From positions 1 to 31,770 of IMG/VR virus record IMGVR_UViG_3300008110_000344: a stretch of DNA of 31,770 bases. One strand, given 5' to 3'. A program made the translations under genes and the position numbers. This DNA comes from a virus. Shown one piece after another: positions 13,226 through 21,060 of the stretch; positions within the stretch are counted from its first letter, which is position 1, and the number at the start of each line of letters is the position of its first letter. The notes beneath the pieces were generated by a model. That model had not been told where the DNA came from. It saw only the letters and a list, made by a program, of their open reading frames with translations, and did no database searches.

Positions 13226-13255
13226 ATACTACAGGGTGAACTACGTGTTTGTCAA
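13226..13255 (-). promoter_or_regulatory. Candidate sigma70-type promoter
   Basis: On the - strand, TTGACA (13255-13250) is followed after 18 nt by TAGTAT (13231-13226), in one of the few real gaps of the left-going region and pointing at the HAD gene. Sequence match only. Confidence 0.5.
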
Positions 13256-14688
13256 TTATCGTCTGAGAGATCCAGCACGTCTGCGTACAGGGCGTTGGTT
13301 GCTTGGGCGCCCATACCGCCACCCTCAAGCATGCGACTAGTTTCTCCAGCCTTGGCACCGAACAAGCGGGACAAGACACCGCTAGATCCTCGGGCTTCCA
13401 TCTCCAGTCGGATGGTGTCACGGGTATCGGAGATGTTTTTGAAGCGATCAATCAAGTTAAACAAACGATCCATTTCCGATGACAACGCTGGGTCAAGACC
13501 CTGTCCTTCAAGTTCTTCTGCGAAGCGGGCGAACATCACACGACCTACTTGCATCTCTAACAAGGCACGCATCGCCGCCTGTAACTGATCCTTTGTACGG
13601 ATCTCAATCGGGAGGTTAAACGCACATTCTGAATGTTCCTTGAAACTAGGACATCTATTGCTCAGATAGCAACTATCGCACTGGCGTAAAGGGTTCGCAT
13701 TGTAACGAATTACGTTGACCTTTTCAGGGTCAATTTCTATAGAATCCCCTTCTGTATCAACGGTTTGCGAGCCAAAGGAGGTGATGGTTTCCATACCCAT
13801 TACTGGTAGCAATACACGCTCACTCTCGTGCCTCTTCGTTGGGGTGTTGATAGCAATAGTTGACCCCCCAGAAACCAAAGAAGTGGGGGTATGTGTTACA
13901 GGGGGTATAGCAACTATCTGCCCTTCATTTGGGGTCAAGATCTCTTGCTCGTCATCGTCATTCATAGGGTCATAGCCCCCAAAAGTATGGGTCTCCCATT
14001 GTTGCCATGAGGCAATTGCAAGGTTACCGATTGCGGATACGTTGTCGTCCATTACAGCATCAAAGTCAATACCAAGTCGGACAATGTCCGCACGATGCTT
14101 TCTGCGTGAGGACTCTTTTTGCTGTGCTGGATATCTGCGCAAGCCGTGACCGTCCCACACCTGTGTCTCTCCGTAGCGAATAGCGCTCGTCCACGAACCT
14201 ACGATTACGCTGTCCCATGGCACACGCTCAATGAGATCGGGCTTTGAAGTAATGCCGACTAACTTGGCGTTCCAGCGCTGTGCAATGGACGCTATGCGCC
14301 CCACATTGCGCCCTGTGACCGCTTTGTCGCTAATCGCCGCCCGACCGTACTTCTGGCAAAGCCATGTCAAACGCTCCAGATCCTGCTCATCGTTCCATAG
14401 CGGGTAGTACTTCTCTCCTAGCCATGAACCCTCATAATCAGGGCGTCCAATTACAATATGTAAACTATCTGCGTGATCACGGACGAACTGGTCAAAGCGG
14501 TTTGTGTCCTCATCGTTTTCTGATGTGTACACAATGATCTCGCCCTCATCAAAGAGGGCACTGAGATCTAATTCCTTCTTCTTGGGAATCGGAAAGTGGG
14601 TCAGGTTGAGAGCATGGCGAGTTACGCCAGCAGTCAACAGCATCTTGCGATACGTCCCCTTTTCCGCTCCGCCAAAGAATACTTTCAT
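13252..14688 (-). CDS. Conserved-type actinophage protein, unknown function, with 4-Cys cluster
   Basis: 478-aa protein in two parts. The N-terminal half (1-235) looks like an alpha/beta domain: MKVFFGGAEKGTYRKMLLTAGV, LVGITSKPDLI, VPWDSVIVGSWTSAIRYGETQVWDGHGLRRYP. A disordered Thr/Pro/Glu linker follows. The C-terminal part has C337-x2-C340-x5-C346-x8-C355, then a helical domain ending GVLSRLFGAKAGE. The Cys spacing could hold Fe-S or zinc. I do not recognise an enzyme; a packaging or DNA-binding role is possible but unsupported. ATGA-coupled to the gene upstream. In-gene inverted repeats at 13856-13917 coincide with the linker. Confidence 0.75.
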   Translation of the reverse strand: MKVFFGGAEKGTYRKMLLTAGVTRHALNLTHFPIPKKKELDLSALFDEGEIIVYTSENDEDTNRFDQFVRDHADSLHIVIGRPDYEGSWLGEKYYPLWNDEQDLERLTWLCQKYGRAAISDKAVTGRNVGRIASIAQRWNAKLVGITSKPDLIERVPWDSVIVGSWTSAIRYGETQVWDGHGLRRYPAQQKESSRRKHRADIVRLGIDFDAVMDDNVSAIGNLAIASWQQWETHTFGGYDPMNDDDEQEILTPNEGQIVAIPPVTHTPTSLVSGGSTIAINTPTKRHESERVLLPVMGMETITSFGSQTVDTEGDSIEIDPEKVNVIRYNANPLRQCDSCYLSNRCPSFKEHSECAFNLPIEIRTKDQLQAAMRALLEMQVGRVMFARFAEELEGQGLDPALSSEMDRLFNLIDRFKNISDTRDTIRLEMEARGSSGVLSRLFGAKAGETSRMLEGGGMGAQATNALYADVLDLSDDN

Positions 14689-14939: not shown

Positions 14940-15414
14940 CTCCCCAATTCCTTTCTGCTCTCGCAAGAGCCTGTGCATCTACTTCTTCTACGATTGTGTC
15001 CCACGCTTTTTTAGTGCGTGCTTCTGACCATTCAGGTCTGACGATGTGTGGCACCGTCATCAACAGTGTAGGGATTCCGTTGTGAGAAACCTTTGCTATC
15101 ACCCGAGGGTCAATGTCAATGTACCAGTTGATGCGTCCATAAACAGCATGCAAGTTCTGAATTCTTTCTACACGAGCCTCAACCGTACTTTCAGCAATAA
15201 AATCAACTGTTGACGCTTTGAAGCCTTCTCGCTTTAACCATTCAAGACAGCCTTGTTCATTGGTAACGCCTGAAGCAAACACTGCCATGCGACCATTAAA
15301 TGCAGGGAAGAAAGTGTTCCACAACCTACGTCCCTCTGGGCTTGGTTGTCTGGCTCCTACTTCATCACTGACATTGCTTGGTATAGAAAGAACGTCTAGC
15401 GATATCAGGATCAT
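14932..15414 (-). CDS. Possible degenerate HAD-like protein
   Basis: 160-aa protein beginning MILISLDVLSIPSN, where a HAD motif I would read DxD but the second Asp is replaced. Near residue 115 INWYIDIDPRVIAKVSHNGIPTLLMT resembles the HAD C-terminal segment that senses the second acidic pair. The fold may be HAD with lost catalysis. Length and neighbourhood (another HAD at 12604) fit. Assignment is tentative. TGATG overlap with the upstream gene. Confidence 0.6.
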   Translation of the reverse strand: MILISLDVLSIPSNVSDEVGARQPSPEGRRLWNTFFPAFNGRMAVFASGVTNEQGCLEWLKREGFKASTVDFIAESTVEARVERIQNLHAVYGRINWYIDIDPRVIAKVSHNGIPTLLMTVPHIVRPEWSEARTKKAWDTIVEEVDAQALARAERNWGDV

Positions 15415-15878
15415 CAGTCGTACATGCCCATTTCAACACGCTGACGATGCGTGTAGTACTCGGCGGCTGGACAGTACATGCAAAGATACTGACGCTTTTC
15501 TGGTGGCACACCAACTTTACGACCAATCGTCTTAGCGTCTGTGCACCAGTCAATACAACCTTGCTTAGGGCGATTGTGGCGGTTAAAGCACTTAAGTGCA
15601 TCTACTTTGAGTTCGTCACGAGTGTCTTTGATGTAGACATCGTTCTTTGCTAGTTCGCTTTTAACTGCTGTTTCTGAGTCCAGTTTCTTTGCGGTCTCTT
15701 CATCTGTGCGATAAATGAGTGCACTGCAATTCTGTGGGTCTGGCACCTGTGCGTTGTGACGGTCACAGAGTTCACGCAACTCTTGGTCGTGTTCTGGTGG
15801 TCCATCGTATGGACGCATCTTCCACATAACACCGTGCGTTTTGCATACCAAAAGACGGTGTGCTTGTTCATTAGCCAT
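15414..15878 (-). CDS. Cys/His-rich 154-aa protein
   Basis: Contains several possible zinc sites: C12-x2-H15 with C38-x2-H41 near the N-terminus, and KCFNRHNRPKQGCIDWC plus CMYC in the last third. Charged middle with a helical stretch. No known family; nucleic-acid binding is plausible. AGGAG lies 8 nt upstream, just behind a hairpin (15892-15908). Confidence 0.7.
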   Translation of the reverse strand: MANEQAHRLLVCKTHGVMWKMRPYDGPPEHDQELRELCDRHNAQVPDPQNCSALIYRTDEETAKKLDSETAVKSELAKNDVYIKDTRDELKVDALKCFNRHNRPKQGCIDWCTDAKTIGRKVGVPPEKRQYLCMYCPAAEYYTHRQRVEMGMYD

Positions 15879-15891
15879 GTTGTGCTCCTAA

Positions 15892-15908
15892 CTTCGGTCT
15901 AGCCGAAG
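15892..15908 (-). promoter_or_regulatory. Leader hairpin before the 15878 gene
   Basis: CTTCGG and CCGAAG form a 6-bp stem with a 5-nt loop between the stop of the upstream gene and the Shine-Dalgarno AGGAGC. No U-run follows, so it is not an obvious terminator. It echoes the hairpin-plus-Shine-Dalgarno layout of the + strand. Confidence 0.45.
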
Positions 15909-15919
15909 ACTACTACAAA

Positions 15920-16258
15920 TTAATATGAGTTAGCGTTGTCACCACGTCCAGTAGTTCCGTATGTCATGTATTTAGCCTGATCCATATCTCTAACACGGCG
16001 TGCGGTACTATTACCATACAAAATCTCTGCGGGGTCATGTCCTCGGTAACTCATGTCTTCGGCATCGTCCATATCTGCGGAGCCTAAACGATCCCTAGAG
16101 ATGTCGTCTTCTGGCTCCCAGTTCTTACCTGCAACATTTCCTAAGTTATACCAATCATCATTGGTATTGCGAGGATCAGTTGCCATTTCTCGGCGCATAC
16201 GGTTTACTTTATTGAGGTGTGGCTCACCTACTTCATTCATGCGATGGTCATGTGCCAT
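15920..16258 (-). CDS. Small disordered protein A with MAHDHRMNEV tag
   Basis: 112 aa, highly polar (Asp, Arg, Asn, Gly), probably disordered. Residues 1-20 (MAHDHRMNEV...LNKVNR) are identical to those of the next gene upstream, while the rest differs. Last gene of the 15.9-21.1 kb cluster. No enzyme motif. It could be a virion-internal, scaffold or host-interaction protein; nothing decides between them. Confidence 0.7.
   Translation of the reverse strand: MAHDHRMNEVGEPHLNKVNRMRREMATDPRNTNDDWYNLGNVAGKNWEPEDDISRDRLGSADMDDAEDMSYRGHDPAEILYGNSTARRVRDMDQAKYMTYGTTGRGDNANSY
16199..16258 (-). repeat. 20-codon N-terminal tag, copy 1
   Basis: Encodes the 20-residue N-terminus shared with copy 2 at 16579-16638. 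The two DNA copies differ at 8 positions, all silent. Confidence 0.9.
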
Positions 16259-16260
16259 GG

Positions 16261-16638
16261 TTATGCCCAGTCCCCATCACCAAAGTATTGGCGCCGTGAG
16301 AAACGAGCACCAACTTCACGAGCGGTATCTCGTGACAGCGAAGACTGAGGCAGATTAGTCCGATTAGCAAAGTTACGATCTTCACGGTAGTTAGAAATAC
16401 GAGCGTCTACGGCTTCTGCAATCGCAGGTGTTAGATCTGGCTCTATAACACTGTTACCACTGATAGGAGAAGCAGCAGTGCCTCGCATATCAGCCCACTG
16501 ATTAACATGTCTATGTTCATCTACAAGTTGGTTAGTGATCATACCCCTAAGACGAGGAAGGTGTGACCGCCCACCAGCACGGTTTACTTTGTTGAGGTGG
16601 GGTTCGCCCACTTCGTTCATGCGATGATCGTGTGCCAT
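16261..16638 (-). CDS. Small disordered protein B with MAHDHRMNEV tag
   Basis: 125 aa; shares the exact 20-residue N-terminus of the 15920 gene, then diverges completely (AGGRSHLPRLRGMITNQLVDEHRHVNQW...). Polar, Arg- and Asn-rich, no Cys. HLPRLRGMITNQLVDEHRHVNQWADMRG may be helical. AAGGAT Shine-Dalgarno upstream. Function unknown; the shared tag suggests both proteins go to, or bind, the same partner. Confidence 0.7.
   Translation of the reverse strand: MAHDHRMNEVGEPHLNKVNRAGGRSHLPRLRGMITNQLVDEHRHVNQWADMRGTAASPISGNSVIEPDLTPAIAEAVDARISNYREDRNFANRTNLPQSSLSRDTAREVGARFSRRQYFGDGDWA
16579..16638 (-). repeat. 20-codon N-terminal tag, copy 2
   Basis: Second copy of the conserved tag. Identical at protein level to copy 1 with eight synonymous differences, showing selection on the peptide rather than a recent DNA duplication. 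Confidence 0.9.
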
Positions 16639-16647
16639 GGTTAATCC

Positions 16648-16851
16648 TTACTTGTGTAGATGTGCTTCAGGGGCGTTAGCCAAAGGGGTTCGCTCTACGA
16701 GACCGTACTGTGGCTGTACTTCCATAGCACGGACTGAGGCATCAGTTGGGTCAATATCGCCACCACGATCTGGTGTGAGTGACTTGAACTTGCCGTCCTT
16801 GGCACCAAGGCTAAGGTCGTTGTTCATTGAGCGGGTTTCGTTTACAGCCAT
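16648..16851 (-). CDS. Hypothetical 67-aa disordered protein
   Basis: Polar protein MAVNETRSMNNDLSLGAKDGKFKSLTPDRGG... with a KSLTP motif that also ends the protein from 18860-19351. AGGAT upstream. No Cys, no membrane segment, probably disordered. Part of the small-protein cluster. Confidence 0.65.
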   Translation of the reverse strand: MAVNETRSMNNDLSLGAKDGKFKSLTPDRGGDIDPTDASVRAMEVQPQYGLVERTPLANAPEAHLHK

Positions 16852-16864
16852 AGTATTAATCCTA

Positions 16865-17551
16865 TCACGGTTTCTGATTATTTAAAGATTCACGAATTCT
16901 AGCAATAGCGTCAGCACCCATTGCTCTGCGTTGTGCACGAGTTTTGGCTGGAGCAGTTGCGGAAGGGGCACGAGGTGGTCGGTTAGTTGCCGTTACTGCT
17001 GGGGGGCGTTGCATTGGGGGCAATGGGTTAACTGGTTGACCCGCAGGCGTGGTAGACGTAGGTACCGCTTTATTTTGAGAAACCCCAGCAACTGCCTGCT
17101 GTTGTATTGGTGTCAATACGGTAGGGGCAGGTGGTTCTGGAGTAACCCGTTCCATGTTGATTTTGACCCTAGGACGTTCAATTGGTGTTGGTGCTGGGCG
17201 TGGTGCTGGAGGAGTTACTTCAATTATTGGGCGATCAGATACGCCAGCAACAGCCCGTTGTTGTAGTGGAGTTAGGGATCCTACTGGCGTCTTTGTAGCC
17301 ACAGGAGACATACGCAAAGTTGGACGTGGTTTACCCATTGGCAGAGCACCAGGAGGTGGTGGAACCAATGGAGATGTAGGAAGCACTGGAACCACTGGTG
17401 GTGTCACAACGGGTGGCGGTGGAGGTGCTGGTTTTTTAGCATCCTCTTTTGCTTTTTTAATGTCAGCAATACCTGCTTTAACTTCGTTTACTGTTTTTGC
17501 TGTTGCTGTCTGTTGAACAACCAGTTTTGCAAAGTCTTTCATACCGCCCAT
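16865..17551 (-). CDS. Proline/alanine-rich disordered protein (228 aa)
   Basis: Residues 1-40 form a Lys-rich helix (KDFAKLVVQQTATAKTVNEVKAGIADIKKAKEDAKK). The rest is Pro/Ala/Val/Thr-rich with a duplicated unit, LTPLQQRAVAGVS and LTPIQQQAVAGVS, about 65 residues apart. The basic C-terminus is KTRAQRRAMGADAIARIRESL. ATG 17551 is chosen; TTG 17557 and ATG 17542 are alternatives, none with a strong Shine-Dalgarno. Long flexible linkers of this kind occur in virion-internal and cell-surface proteins. Function unknown. Confidence 0.65.
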   Translation of the reverse strand: MGGMKDFAKLVVQQTATAKTVNEVKAGIADIKKAKEDAKKPAPPPPPVVTPPVVPVLPTSPLVPPPPGALPMGKPRPTLRMSPVATKTPVGSLTPLQQRAVAGVSDRPIIEVTPPAPRPAPTPIERPRVKINMERVTPEPPAPTVLTPIQQQAVAGVSQNKAVPTSTTPAGQPVNPLPPMQRPPAVTATNRPPRAPSATAPAKTRAQRRAMGADAIARIRESLNNQKP

Positions 17552-17553
17552 GA

Positions 17554-18099
17554 TCAAATCACCGTTCCCGAAGACCTGCGGTTTGCACGGGTGTTCCTGA
17601 TTGCGCCAATGCGGGTTCTAACTTGACCCATGGTCTGACCAAACGGAGTTTGTTGAACAGCATTTTGTGCCATGCTAATTAATGGGCGAGCGCCTCCAGA
17701 AGACGCCATTGTCATTGGCGAACTAGAAGGTGCTGGTAAGTTCGCAGACGCTGTTGGGGTACTAGGGGTTGCTGGAGCAGTTGGACCAGTTACAGCAGTC
17801 CCTGGAGTTGGGGACGGTAATGGTGTTCCTGTGGTTGAGGAATCAGGTGTGGGTTTATCTTTGTAACGCTCACTCCACTTTTCACCTTTATTAAAGCCAC
17901 GATCCATGATGTGCTCGTTGGCTCCCCAATCTAGGCGCATGCCAATTCTAGGTGGTTTAAATGCAGGTGCCTGACTGACACGTGGACCTTGTTTAAAGCC
18001 AGCCTGCATCCACGATGGCGTAGACCATTGCATGGAGTTTGACCATTGCTGGTTAAGGCGTTGGTTTTGGATCTCTCCGATGTAATCGTTTTCTGCCAT
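17554..18099 (-). CDS. Proline/serine-rich disordered protein (181 aa)
   Basis: ATG 18099 (MAENDYIGEIQNQRLNQQW) follows GGGG at normal distance and is preferred to 18168. The first 90 residues are Trp/Gln/Lys-rich. They are followed by a Pro/Thr/Ser linker (TPLPSPTPGTAVTGPTAPATPSTPT) and a basic tail (VRTRIGAIRNTRANRRSS). Same overall plan as its downstream neighbour. Function unknown. Confidence 0.65.
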   Translation of the reverse strand: MAENDYIGEIQNQRLNQQWSNSMQWSTPSWMQAGFKQGPRVSQAPAFKPPRIGMRLDWGANEHIMDRGFNKGEKWSERYKDKPTPDSSTTGTPLPSPTPGTAVTGPTAPATPSTPTASANLPAPSSSPMTMASSGGARPLISMAQNAVQQTPFGQTMGQVRTRIGAIRNTRANRRSSGTVI

Positions 18100-18100
18100 A

Positions 18101-18415
18101 TCAGCCCCACAAACTTTGCATTGAGTAGCGACTAGAACTAGAGAAGTTATCTTCCATGAAACCATCACGGAACATCACAGGTGCCCCTGAGACCCACGAA
18201 CGGTTAGATGCGGTGTAACGATCAATGTTTAGTACGTCCATTATACCCATTGTTTGCTTGGCATAACCTTCACGAACAGTAAACAATTGTTGTGGGTGTA
18301 CTGGGCGGATTTGGCGGATCGTGTCAGGATCGGAGATAGCCGTCTGCAACGCCATGTCAACGAGCATCTCAGAATGAGACTGCCATGGGCGTGCGGTAGG
18401 CATCTGTTGAGCCAT
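18101..18415 (-). CDS. Hypothetical 104-aa protein
   Basis: More ordered than its neighbours. A helical N-terminal half (HSEMLVDMALQTAISDPDTIRQI) is followed by ASNRSWVSGAPVMFRDGFMEDNFSSSSRYSMQSLWG, rich in Ser and aromatics. AGGAT upstream. No recognised family. The next gene starts 2 nt after the stop. Confidence 0.62.
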   Translation of the reverse strand: MAQQMPTARPWQSHSEMLVDMALQTAISDPDTIRQIRPVHPQQLFTVREGYAKQTMGIMDVLNIDRYTASNRSWVSGAPVMFRDGFMEDNFSSSSRYSMQSLWG

Positions 18416-18418
18416 TAT

Positions 18419-18634
18419 TTAATCCTGAAACCAATCTGTGTTTGGTCGTGGCATGCCATAAGGATTTGCATGGTCGTCACCATATGGCTCTTTACCACTA
18501 CCACCTGTTTGGGTGTATGGCTTCTTTGGTGGCTTACCACCAGCACCACCAGAGGCAGGGTGATTACGCATCTTCCATGTCTTCATGTCAACGATGCGTG
18601 CTTCGTTGCGTGATTCGTCAATTCCACTTGCCAT
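18419..18634 (-). CDS. Hypothetical 71-aa disordered protein
   Basis: Starts MASGIDESRNEARIVDMKTW after AAGGA. The rest is Gly/Pro/Lys-rich and probably disordered (HPASGGAGGKPPKKPYTQTGGSG). Function unknown. Confidence 0.6.
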   Translation of the reverse strand: MASGIDESRNEARIVDMKTWKMRNHPASGGAGGKPPKKPYTQTGGSGKEPYGDDHANPYGMPRPNTDWFQD

Positions 18635-18644
18635 GATTATTCCT

Positions 18645-18857
18645 TTATGCCCAAGTGTTTAAGTAAGGATCAAATGGTTGCTGTTTGCTCTTTCCTTTTT
18701 TAAAAAAGTGATCGGCGGCGGCATGGTAATCTGCCCAATCTTCAGGACTGCTGTGTTCATTGGGTTTTGGGCGAGTAGTACCGTCAGGTCTAGCGTACAT
18801 AACATCTCTACTTACTTGACGGTTAGGGTGCCGTCCTGTTTCTTCTCCACGTGCCAT
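18645..18857 (-). CDS. Hypothetical 70-aa polar protein
   Basis: MARGEETGRHPNRQVSRDVMYARPDGTTRPKP..., basic and disordered at first. A short helical end follows, SPEDWADYHAAADHFFKKGKSKQQPFDPYLNTW. GGAG upstream. Function unknown. Confidence 0.6.
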   Translation of the reverse strand: MARGEETGRHPNRQVSRDVMYARPDGTTRPKPNEHSSPEDWADYHAAADHFFKKGKSKQQPFDPYLNTWA

Positions 18858-18859
18858 TA

Positions 18860-19351
18860 TTATCTCCAGTTCGGGGTGAGTGATTTAAGTTTTGATCGGC
18901 GCTCAAGGCTCATTTCCATAGCCTCATCACGCTTGTCGTCTCGTGAAATACCACGAGGACCAACCTTGCCATCGTTAGTAAGTCGCACTGGCTCTGCACC
19001 CTGTGGCGCAAACTTCAAACCTTGTGCTTGATACTGAAGAGCAGTATAAAGGTTGAACTCATCGGGCCATAGGTAATCGCCCGCATTAATGCGTTCACCT
19101 TTATGCACACCACGTGAGTACTGGCGGGCATTCATTCGGCTGAGTGAGCCAAGGATCTTGTCTTGACGGCGGTTAGCCGACATGGTGCCGAGGTATCCGT
19201 CTGGATACTGTGTGTCAGCGCCACGCTGGTAGCCAGAGAGCGCTAGATCTTTGGCGTTGCGGAACACTGGCTGTGGACCAAAGTCAGTCTGCGAGTTACC
19301 ACCTGGGGGTGCCGATGGTGTCTGCCAAGATGTAAAAGTGTTCTTACTCAT
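18860..19351 (-). CDS. Hypothetical 163-aa protein
   Basis: Polar, Gly/Arg/Asn-rich. YLWPDEFNLYTALQYQAQGLKFAPQGAEP in the middle may fold. The end is RDEAMEMSLERRSKLKSLTPNWR, whose KSLTP recurs in the 16648-16851 product. ATGA overlap with the small gene upstream. No Cys and no known family. Confidence 0.65.
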   Translation of the reverse strand: MSKNTFTSWQTPSAPPGGNSQTDFGPQPVFRNAKDLALSGYQRGADTQYPDGYLGTMSANRRQDKILGSLSRMNARQYSRGVHKGERINAGDYLWPDEFNLYTALQYQAQGLKFAPQGAEPVRLTNDGKVGPRGISRDDKRDEAMEMSLERRSKLKSLTPNWR

Positions 19352-19515
19352 ATGCCTACTTGACCCTGTCCACTTGGTGTAAGTAGACCTCCCATTGTAC
19401 CTCCACCTAGAGGTGAGATCGGGCGAGGTGAGTAGCGTGCACCATTACGCTCTTGAGACAATGATGGAGGAACACGAGTTCCTCTTGTCTTGCGGGGCTT
19501 CTTTTTGGAAGCCAC
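19348..19515 (-). CDS. Basic 55-aa Gly/Pro-rich protein
   Basis: GTG start 2 nt after the upstream stop, ending in an ATGA overlap with the next gene. Encodes VASKKKPRKTRGTRVPPSLSQERNGARYSP... then PISPLGGGTMGGLLTPSGQGQ. Strongly basic start and Gly-rich end; probably disordered and possibly nucleic-acid binding. Weak Shine-Dalgarno. Confidence 0.55.
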   Translation of the reverse strand: MASKKKPRKTRGTRVPPSLSQERNGARYSPRPISPLGGGTMGGLLTPSGQGQVGI

Positions 19516-19517
19516 AA

Positions 19518-20147
19518 TTACATCTCGTTAGGCTTTTTTGCCCTAGGGTTTGGGATTGTTGCTTGCGGGTAATCTTTAGTTGCTACTGAAGGTGCCTCAA
19601 TGCGCTTGGTGCGCTTCCTAGGCTTCTCATTAGGCAACAAAGCCATGCGCCGTTCACGCTTTGCTTTGCTTCCTTGCTTTTTCTTGGCGGCTTTTTGTTG
19701 GTCTGCCCATGCAAGTTTGTCTGCAACGTACTTATCTCTGCCAGCCATGTATTCATCATCTGTAGCAGGAGCACCTACTGTCTTACCCAGTTGGCGTGGG
19801 TGCTGGCGCTCTAGTGCTTCTGGGTCTGTGGTAGTCATACCACGACCTGCAAGGCTTTCAACAGTTCGTGTGTTTGGGTCACGCAAAGCAATGCGAACGT
19901 TACCTACATCACCAATCTTGCTTGTCTTAGTGGTAGTGCCACGCTCAATTTTGATGCGGTTAGTCCATTTAACTGGGAACCCAGCATCATCTGGACCCAG
20001 TGTGCCTGCTTCACGAGCAGGCGTGTGGATCATAGGAACAACAATCTCACGAGGTTCTTCCGAAGATTTAGCGGTGTTAGGTTGATCCCAAATCTTAAAT
20101 GGAGATTCTGAACCCGCTCCAGATGCGAAGTGGTCTTTACGAGCCAT
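19518..20147 (-). CDS. Basic disordered 209-aa protein
   Basis: Polar and Lys/Arg/Pro-rich. There is a more ordered middle (FPVKWTNRIKIERGTTTKTSKIGDVGNVRIALRDPNTRTVESLAGRG) and a very basic C-terminus (QQKAAKKKQGSKAKRERRMALLPNEKPRKRTKR). Such tails bind nucleic acid or acidic partners. TAATG overlap with the upstream gene. No recognised family. Confidence 0.68.
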   Translation of the reverse strand: MARKDHFASGAGSESPFKIWDQPNTAKSSEEPREIVVPMIHTPAREAGTLGPDDAGFPVKWTNRIKIERGTTTKTSKIGDVGNVRIALRDPNTRTVESLAGRGMTTTDPEALERQHPRQLGKTVGAPATDDEYMAGRDKYVADKLAWADQQKAAKKKQGSKAKRERRMALLPNEKPRKRTKRIEAPSVATKDYPQATIPNPRAKKPNEM

Positions 20148-20767
20148 TAACGCTTTTTGTTTTCGTCCATGATTCGCTTTGAGCGTGCATCTTGTGCATC
20201 ATCCATCATACTTGGGTTGTCCTTCATGCGCTTTTGTACGCCTTTAACACCATCAGTTTTCATGGCTTTAACTGTTGCCTTGTCAGCGGTTTCTTGGTCA
20301 CTGCCCATGTATTTCATACCGCCAGGCTTGAGCCAACTATTGTCTACACGATCCTCAGCGGCTTTAGCGGCGTCATATGCCTGACCTGCTTTGCGTGACT
20401 TTTCCATTGCTCTAGGCTTGTTGATTTTCTTCAAAGCCTTTGCATCACGCTTGTCTGACTTGCTTTGGGCTTTTCCTGCTGGAGTGTCCTCACCAACCCA
20501 TGTTTTTCCGCCGTCATAGTTGTCATGCAGGTTGATATAAACCTTACCCGTTAGACCAGACACAGCACTCTTTGGTCCACCATGGCGAACCCCTACTTCA
20601 TTACGATCACGAGTTTCGTTGAAACGAGTGTTCAAACCTGTTGAACGAGTCTTATCTTCTACTGGAAGACTGTTTGATCCAAGGTTCCATGAAGAAGTTG
20701 TTACGTTGTGGGCGTCATCTCCACGACCTGCACCTGCTCCACCACGAATCTTATTAAAAATGCCCAT
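20147..20767 (-). CDS. Basic disordered 206-aa protein
   Basis: Gly/Asp/Lys-rich. The start MGIFNKIRGGAGAGRGDD is disordered, and VRHGGPKSAVSGLTGKVYINLHDNYDGGKTWVGEDTP may be ordered. A long basic helical part (KSDKRDAKALKKINKPRAMEKSRKAGQAYDAAKAAEDRV) and a charged end follow. GAGGT upstream. No known family. Resembles its downstream neighbour in composition. Confidence 0.68.
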   Translation of the reverse strand: MGIFNKIRGGAGAGRGDDAHNVTTSSWNLGSNSLPVEDKTRSTGLNTRFNETRDRNEVGVRHGGPKSAVSGLTGKVYINLHDNYDGGKTWVGEDTPAGKAQSKSDKRDAKALKKINKPRAMEKSRKAGQAYDAAKAAEDRVDNSWLKPGGMKYMGSDQETADKATVKAMKTDGVKGVQKRMKDNPSMMDDAQDARSKRIMDENKKR

Positions 20768-20769
20768 GA

Positions 20770-21060
20770 CTACCTCACGATTGGTTTAAATGAGATAGCC
20801 GAAATGGCTTCTCCGTTATCACCAATAATATCATCAAAGCCAATAATGTACGTGAGATCAACACCACGTGGGGCAACAAAGCCTCTAGCAATAGCAGCCG
20901 CTTTTGCTGCTTGGTTGACTGCACTTGCACCGATGGCTCGCATCTTTGGTGCTTGCCCTGCGTTTACTGCACGGGCGAGAATGGATCCAACGCTCTGAGG
21001 GTTGCTTGAACCCGATACTTTAAGAACGTCTTCAATAGCGGAATTAAGGTCTTGCGACAT
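20770..21060 (-). CDS. Hypothetical 96-aa Ala-rich protein
   Basis: Better ordered than its neighbours. Helical Ala-rich middle (SILARAVNAGQAPKMRAIGASAVNQAAKAAAIARGF) and a beta-like end (VDLTYIIGFDDIIGDNGEAISAISFKPI). AGGAG upstream, behind a small hairpin at 21076-21097. First gene of the small-protein cluster. Function unknown. Confidence 0.65.
   Translation of the reverse strand: MSQDLNSAIEDVLKVSGSSNPQSVGSILARAVNAGQAPKMRAIGASAVNQAAKAAAIARGFVAPRGVDLTYIIGFDDIIGDNGEAISAISFKPIVR

Follow-up and report, generated by a model that had tools for sequence, protein, structure and literature searches.

Why should two neighbouring phage proteins that have nothing else in common begin with the same 20 residues? 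The question is raised by a virus record of 31,770 bases, analysed here over its whole length (the window), which contains two WhiB genes, DNA polymerase A, RecA and a Toprim primase and is therefore a fragment of an actinophage. Protein A (16261..16638, 125 aa) and protein B (15920..16258, 112 aa) are both encoded on the minus strand and share the N-terminus MAHDHRMNEVGEPHLNKVNR, hereafter the tag, which is encoded by the 20 codons at 16579..16638 in A and at 16199..16258 in B. The body of A carries a GRSxLPRL motif, the unrelated body of B a SYRGHDPAEIL motif. The initial annotation had described an identical 20-residue start on two adjacent and otherwise unrelated proteins, and its coordinates and counts are right: the two 60-base segments differ at eight sites, all of them third codon positions and all synonymous, so that 8 of 20 codons differ, and A and B cannot be aligned beyond residues 1-21. 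Correct for the pair, this description is incomplete for the locus, as three further genes of the window carry sister tags. The common start is not due to chance, because about 25 IMG/VR contigs contain the same N-terminus, both on the bodies of A and B and on others. A search for the 20-mer, as had been proposed, thus finds it widely in IMG/VR; an exact pattern search of GTDB genomes gave no match, and neither the tag nor tagged proteins had a relevant match among INPHARED phages.

Proteins A and B are the last of twelve small, closely packed minus-strand open reading frames (ORFs) between a gene of the SpoVS family (20770..21060; PF04232, E 8.8e-20), which opens the block, and a conserved 154-aa gene (15414..15878), which closes it; both of these genes also lie on the minus strand. 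From the SpoVS gene onwards, the block encodes a 206-aa tagged protein of the GRGD class starting with MGIFNKIRGGAGAGRGDDAHNVT (20147..20767), a variable protein to which no tag class was assigned (19518..20147), a small conserved protein with an RPISxxGGG motif (19348..19515) and the conserved untagged protein CORE163 (18860..19351). There follow two tagged proteins of the HPNR class, one of 70 aa starting with MARGEETGRHPNRQVSR (18645..18857) and one of 71 aa starting with MASGIDESRNEARIVDMKTW (18419..18634), the latter also containing the recurring motifs KPPKKPxTxTGG and GMPRPNTDW. The remaining genes before A and B encode the conserved untagged CORE104 (18101..18415), two low-complexity proteins rich in Pro, Ala and Gln (16865..18099) and the conserved untagged CORE67 (16648..16851; MAVNxSRSMNxDL). 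The window thus holds five tagged genes, two of the DHR class (A and B), two of the HPNR class and one of the GRGD class.

Using the conserved 163-aa block protein as query, 202 relatives were found in IMG/VR, and 80 loci were fetched. In these actinophage contigs the block is an operon-like run of small, low-complexity ORFs with a median intergenic distance of 2 bases. The gene order HJ resolvase - SpoVS - CORE163 - CORE104 - CORE67 - 154 aa - 160 aa is conserved, and 8-22 genes, depending on the locus, lie between the SpoVS gene and the 154-aa gene. The SpoVS-family gene is the first block gene in 79 of 83 loci and is also present in Streptomyces phages. Five of these, BRock, LuckySocke, Alone3, GiJojo and pSt2308, have homologues of CORE163 and keep the same order SpoVS, CORE163, CORE104 and CORE67, followed by a homologue of the 154-aa protein and a DpdA-like gene. 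Their blocks, as read for LuckySocke and BRock, consist of seven genes including SpoVS, and their proteins are annotated as hypothetical and lack tags. Downstream of its block the window, too, encodes a DpdA-like tRNA-guanine transglycosylase homologue (13252..14688, minus strand), which matches GiJojo gene 181, annotated as dpdA-like. The homologue is divergent, with about 28% identity to the Streptomyces phage proteins, and suggests a putative 7-deazaguanine modification of the DNA.

Four recurring N-terminal classes were recognised in the block: DHR (MAHDHRMNPVGEPHLNK, MTTDHRGNSVGGNHRSTPR), HPNR (MARGEDTRHHPNRKVSR), FRG (MPTFRGKPVFRRQG) and GRGD (AGRGDDPHGVT). The classes were defined by eye and then written as regular expressions, so that variants such as MATHDRAGNAYG went uncounted and the counts are likely lower bounds. 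At least 210 of 552 unique non-core block proteins from the 80 loci are tagged, whereas none of the 892 unique proteins encoded elsewhere at the same loci carries a tag. Profile HMMs of the DHR, HPNR and FRG classes, run against 898 proteins of seven large contigs, gave clear matches in the block only; with looser patterns, 1 of 34 matches in these contigs fell outside it. The tags sit on about 75-100 unrelated bodies, with 75-90 body clusters between loose and strict clustering; a first clustering had given 103 by over-splitting very short proteins. The initial annotation had named absence of the tag from related phages as evidence against its proposal. Yet at least one tagged gene is present in 55 of 55 complete related blocks, with a mean of 4.3 and a maximum of 8 per block, and 44 of the 55 contain two or more tagged genes of one class. 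In most tagged genes the tag begins at the start codon, and in some it lies behind an N-terminal extension, although gene calls were made by a simple script and some starts may be off.

Other short motifs also recur on different bodies, namely GKKPPKKPxTKTGG, DDAPPHGIPRPxxDW, IVDMxxWKxRNHP, GRSxLPRL and Y(R/Q)G(H/K)DPAEI (in the protein at 18419-18634 of the window and in many block proteins of L085-L163). The proteins of the block thus resemble mosaics composed of linear motifs. Searches of the tagged and the large variable block proteins against PHROGs and Pfam gave no usable match and no database function, and tblastn with the tagged proteins gave no relevant match in either INPHARED phages or PLSDB plasmids. 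Nor did we find these tags described in the literature.

What has kept the tags alike is revealed when those on unrelated bodies are compared with each other. DHR tags of the MAHDHR type differ at synonymous sites with a pS of 0.71 and at replacement sites with a pN of 0.24; for HPNR tags, the values are 0.70 and 0.43. The null, taken from the same genes just behind the tag, is a pS of 0.73-0.75 and a pN of 0.72. Over all comparisons between unrelated bodies the tag pS is 0.65-0.73, which is near random, and arginine codons in the tags switch between CGN and AGA. Synonymous sites being near-random and replacement change being held down, selection acts on the peptide and not on the DNA. In this respect the initial annotation, which held that the peptide had been maintained by selection, was borne out. 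The tag could instead be a regulatory or translation signal in DNA or RNA that is associated with the start and is read as a peptide by chance. Such an element would fit the position of most tags at the start codon, but it should be conserved at the nucleotide level, and synonymous sites are close to saturation. Promoter and terminator scans of the region were at chance level, with 3 promoter-like sequences found and 6.1 expected. We therefore reject a start-associated element at the DNA level, the least credible of the explanations considered.

Hardly more credible is a plain relic, that is, an N-terminus made the same by duplication or recent gene conversion and left without function. In its favour, tags are somewhat more alike in their codons within a genome than between genomes. 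The tags of A and B, however, differ at 8 of 20 codons without a single replacement and are not recent copies, and unconstrained relics would have lost the peptide, whereas replacement change is suppressed throughout the family. Both results effectively refute the relic, and with it a recent duplication or conversion of the A/B pair. Both tags of the pair have Glu (GAA) at position 9, where nearly all others have Pro (CCA), and the flanking codons 8 and 10 differ between them; this may reflect a joint change, or an old conversion followed by synonymous drift.

The likeness within genomes extends to the peptide. Tags on unrelated bodies are more alike within a genome than between genomes, a difference reached in 0 of 2000 and 1 of 2000 label shuffles. 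To allow for dependence among the loci, the shuffles were based on 34 groups at 93% core identity; the other counts are of unique proteins. This is as expected if the tags track one partner in each phage. Codon identity at matched tag residues is raised as well (0.52 within loci, 0.445 between loci, 0.38 expected), and part of the likeness could therefore be due to copying.

The tags are not tied to their bodies. About ten clusters of homologous bodies carry differing tag classes, and in ten such pairs, aligned individually, the alignment mostly begins directly behind the tag. The body of protein A has a DHR tag in the window, L001 and L004 and an HPNR tag in L096/L037 and L098; from residue 23 on, the bodies of the window and L096 are 71% identical. 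Further swaps were seen between DHR and HPNR on an HPTGPTT body and on a GKDPAEIV body, and between FRG and HPNR on an HWGSY body. In these alignments the classes are exchangeable between homologous bodies, and since homologous bodies carry different classes, the classes probably do the same job. The DNA itself retains a trace of such exchange. Against L001, which holds the closest relative of protein A, identity of the window is about 85% upstream, then 82% for tag A and 96% for body A, a significant step (Fisher p = 0.0005); tag B and body B follow with 90% and 92%, and the next gene with about 66%. From these steps it follows that a cassette was exchanged, with one edge at the junction of tag A and body A; by these comparisons the tags are also sites at which bodies are re-sorted by recombination. 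A perfect small hairpin (CTTCGG-loop-CCGAAG) lies at 15890-15910 of the window, immediately upstream of the 154-aa gene that closes the block and also near an edge of the exchanged cassette. The old duplication of two genes that had been proposed gives way to a wider picture, in which the A/B tag is one of at least four interchangeable classes found on dozens of bodies and re-sorted by recombination.

Exchange of this kind raises the possibility that the tags are kept chiefly as recombination linkers, whose short homology at the boundaries would allow gene bodies to be swapped. The shift in identity to L001 at the tag A/body A junction and the homologous bodies behind different tags are what linkers would produce. 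Selection for linkers would, however, conserve the DNA, and it is the peptide that has been kept over near-random synonymous sites. Exchange at the tags is then a consequence of the shared sequence and not its reason, and we consider linkers an improbable explanation.

When a peptide is conserved as a peptide, occurs in exchangeable classes and is found at a single locus on many small proteins that are unrelated to each other, the best reading is a docking or targeting signal. Among the roles suggested in the initial annotation this one fits best, and that the 20-mer is an N-terminal signal of some such kind appears likely. From the sharing of tags, their exchange and the selection on them we infer a common partner to which they bind; with less certainty, and by analogy, this partner would be in the virion, and the bodies would be effectors directed against the host or its defence. 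At least four interchangeable versions of the tag would bring a large, fast-changing bank of mostly unrelated small proteins to one partner, most likely a component of the phage head or core during its assembly. The proteins would be packaged into the particle and enter the host together with the DNA, and their variable bodies would act on host or defence targets, in the manner of the T4 internal proteins with their capsid-targeting sequence (CTS). We give this whole route, from a common partner in the head or core to action on the host, somewhat less than an even chance, and packaging into the virion taken by itself is about as well placed, a serious candidate short of probable.

The internal proteins of T4 are the textbook case of unrelated phage proteins that have only a targeting leader in common, and they turned out to be anti-restriction weapons. 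IPII and IPIII have identical leaders, and the CTS is regarded as a means to bring various proteins into the head (PMC9026906); Ip1-3 have only the N-terminal leader in common and differ in the type IV restriction enzyme that they block (PMC12373910). Like the tagged proteins, IPI, IPII and IPIII are small, hypervariable and mutually unrelated except for a short N-terminal leader, and there are several per phage in sets that differ between related phages (PMC3012670, PMC9026906, PMC12373910). The CTS is the closest known design, and a virion location of the tagged proteins is suggested by this analogy. Two features of the T4 system recur here, a single short leader on otherwise unrelated small proteins of one phage and a hypervariable set at a conserved locus that differs between related phages. 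There are also differences. No sequence relation of the tags to the CTS was seen, at least four interchangeable leader classes correspond to one in T4, and up to 8 recognised tagged genes stand in one compact block. T4 internal proteins are basic, whereas the tagged proteins have a median net charge of +0.5. If the nearby DpdA-like gene does point to modified DNA, the phage would need proteins of the anti-restriction type, and modification-dependent restriction is a plausible target of the bodies.

The T4 leader ends in an L/I-x-E site of the gp21 protease, and the tag could likewise be a propeptide, cleaved by a phage protease in head maturation, which is a special case of virion targeting. 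In phiKZ-like giant phages many head proteins are processed by the prohead protease (PMC9026906), their propeptides being cut after glutamate by a gp21-type enzyme. No such motif is enriched in the tagged proteins: L/I-x-E occurs in residues 6-30 of 12.4% of them and in 9.5% of shuffles (sd 1.9%), which is no clear enrichment, and no junction motif is common to the four tag classes. A search for Peptidase_S78 (HK97-type prohead protease) gave no match; one for Peptidase_S77 (gp21-like, T4-type) gave none either, but neither did the control genomes. A propeptide would fit the proteasome/HslV-like peptidase gene that the contig examined has in its head module and that has matches in 5 of 7 contigs searched. 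Still, as there is no shared cleavage motif and some tags lie behind an N-terminal extension, this second role from the initial annotation is doubtful, with perhaps one chance in many. The peptidase gene itself (phrog_1040, PF00227; L047:2956-3588, minus strand) lies beside portal and metallophosphoesterase genes and is also found in G010, G016, G023 and G024. In this phage group, in which no S78 prohead protease was detected, it may be the maturation protease, a candidate not linked to the tags.

Several observations count against packaging into the virion. The block adjoins replication genes and, in one 97-kb contig examined, is separated from the head genes, which occupy about 19-29 kb, while it lies at 76-81 kb. 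The tagged proteins lack a basic charge, some of the tags follow an N-terminal extension, and the cultured Streptomyces relatives keep the core of the block without tags. No virion proteome was found for any member or relative, and the BRock announcement reports none. The tags could accordingly direct the small proteins to a docking partner outside the virion, in the infected cell, for example a host protease, RNA polymerase or a conserved block protein, the bodies being variable modules of host takeover that are not packaged. Selection on the peptide and exchange of tags fit this equally well, as does the location of the block; some bodies contain zinc-ribbon-like C..C/C..C motifs and other recurring short motifs, and the conserved block proteins without tags could serve as the hub. 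The small size, the hypervariability and the leader as the only resemblance are closer to the T4 internal proteins, and we know of no non-virion system that resembles the tagged set as closely. A non-virion partner is therefore the strongest alternative to a partner in the head, though in our view an unlikely one.

Whichever partner applies, the tags may constitute a modular delivery system unrelated to that of T4, in which several interchangeable address tags, sorted by recombination, would direct up to about 20 fast-evolving small proteins of each phage to a single destination, either the virion or a hub in the host; we put this forward tentatively. If true, the tags would be a way to list effector candidates in uncultured actinophages from sequence only. 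A second, unrelated and more elaborate case of a shared leader, in actinobacterial phages, would show that the design recurs. The tags would, moreover, open to searches dozens of small genes that otherwise defy classification, and would provide a small genetically encoded tag for packaging or docking.

Structure prediction added little on the partner or the bodies. The AlphaFold2 model of protein A (10 sequences) has a mean pLDDT of 52.5, with helices at residues 26-55, 70-94 and 99-118 and the tag at low confidence; this model and that of CORE163 (27 sequences) were too poor for a fold search, and a profile search with CORE163 against the PDB gave no match. About 60 of the 163 residues of CORE163 are invariant among 27 relatives, yet its model is of low confidence (mean pLDDT 53.2), as if the protein folded only in a complex. 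Finally, some block proteins reach about 500-560 aa (in L110, L157 and L104) and have long C-terminal tails rich in Lys, Ala and Pro that resemble histone H1-like sequence.
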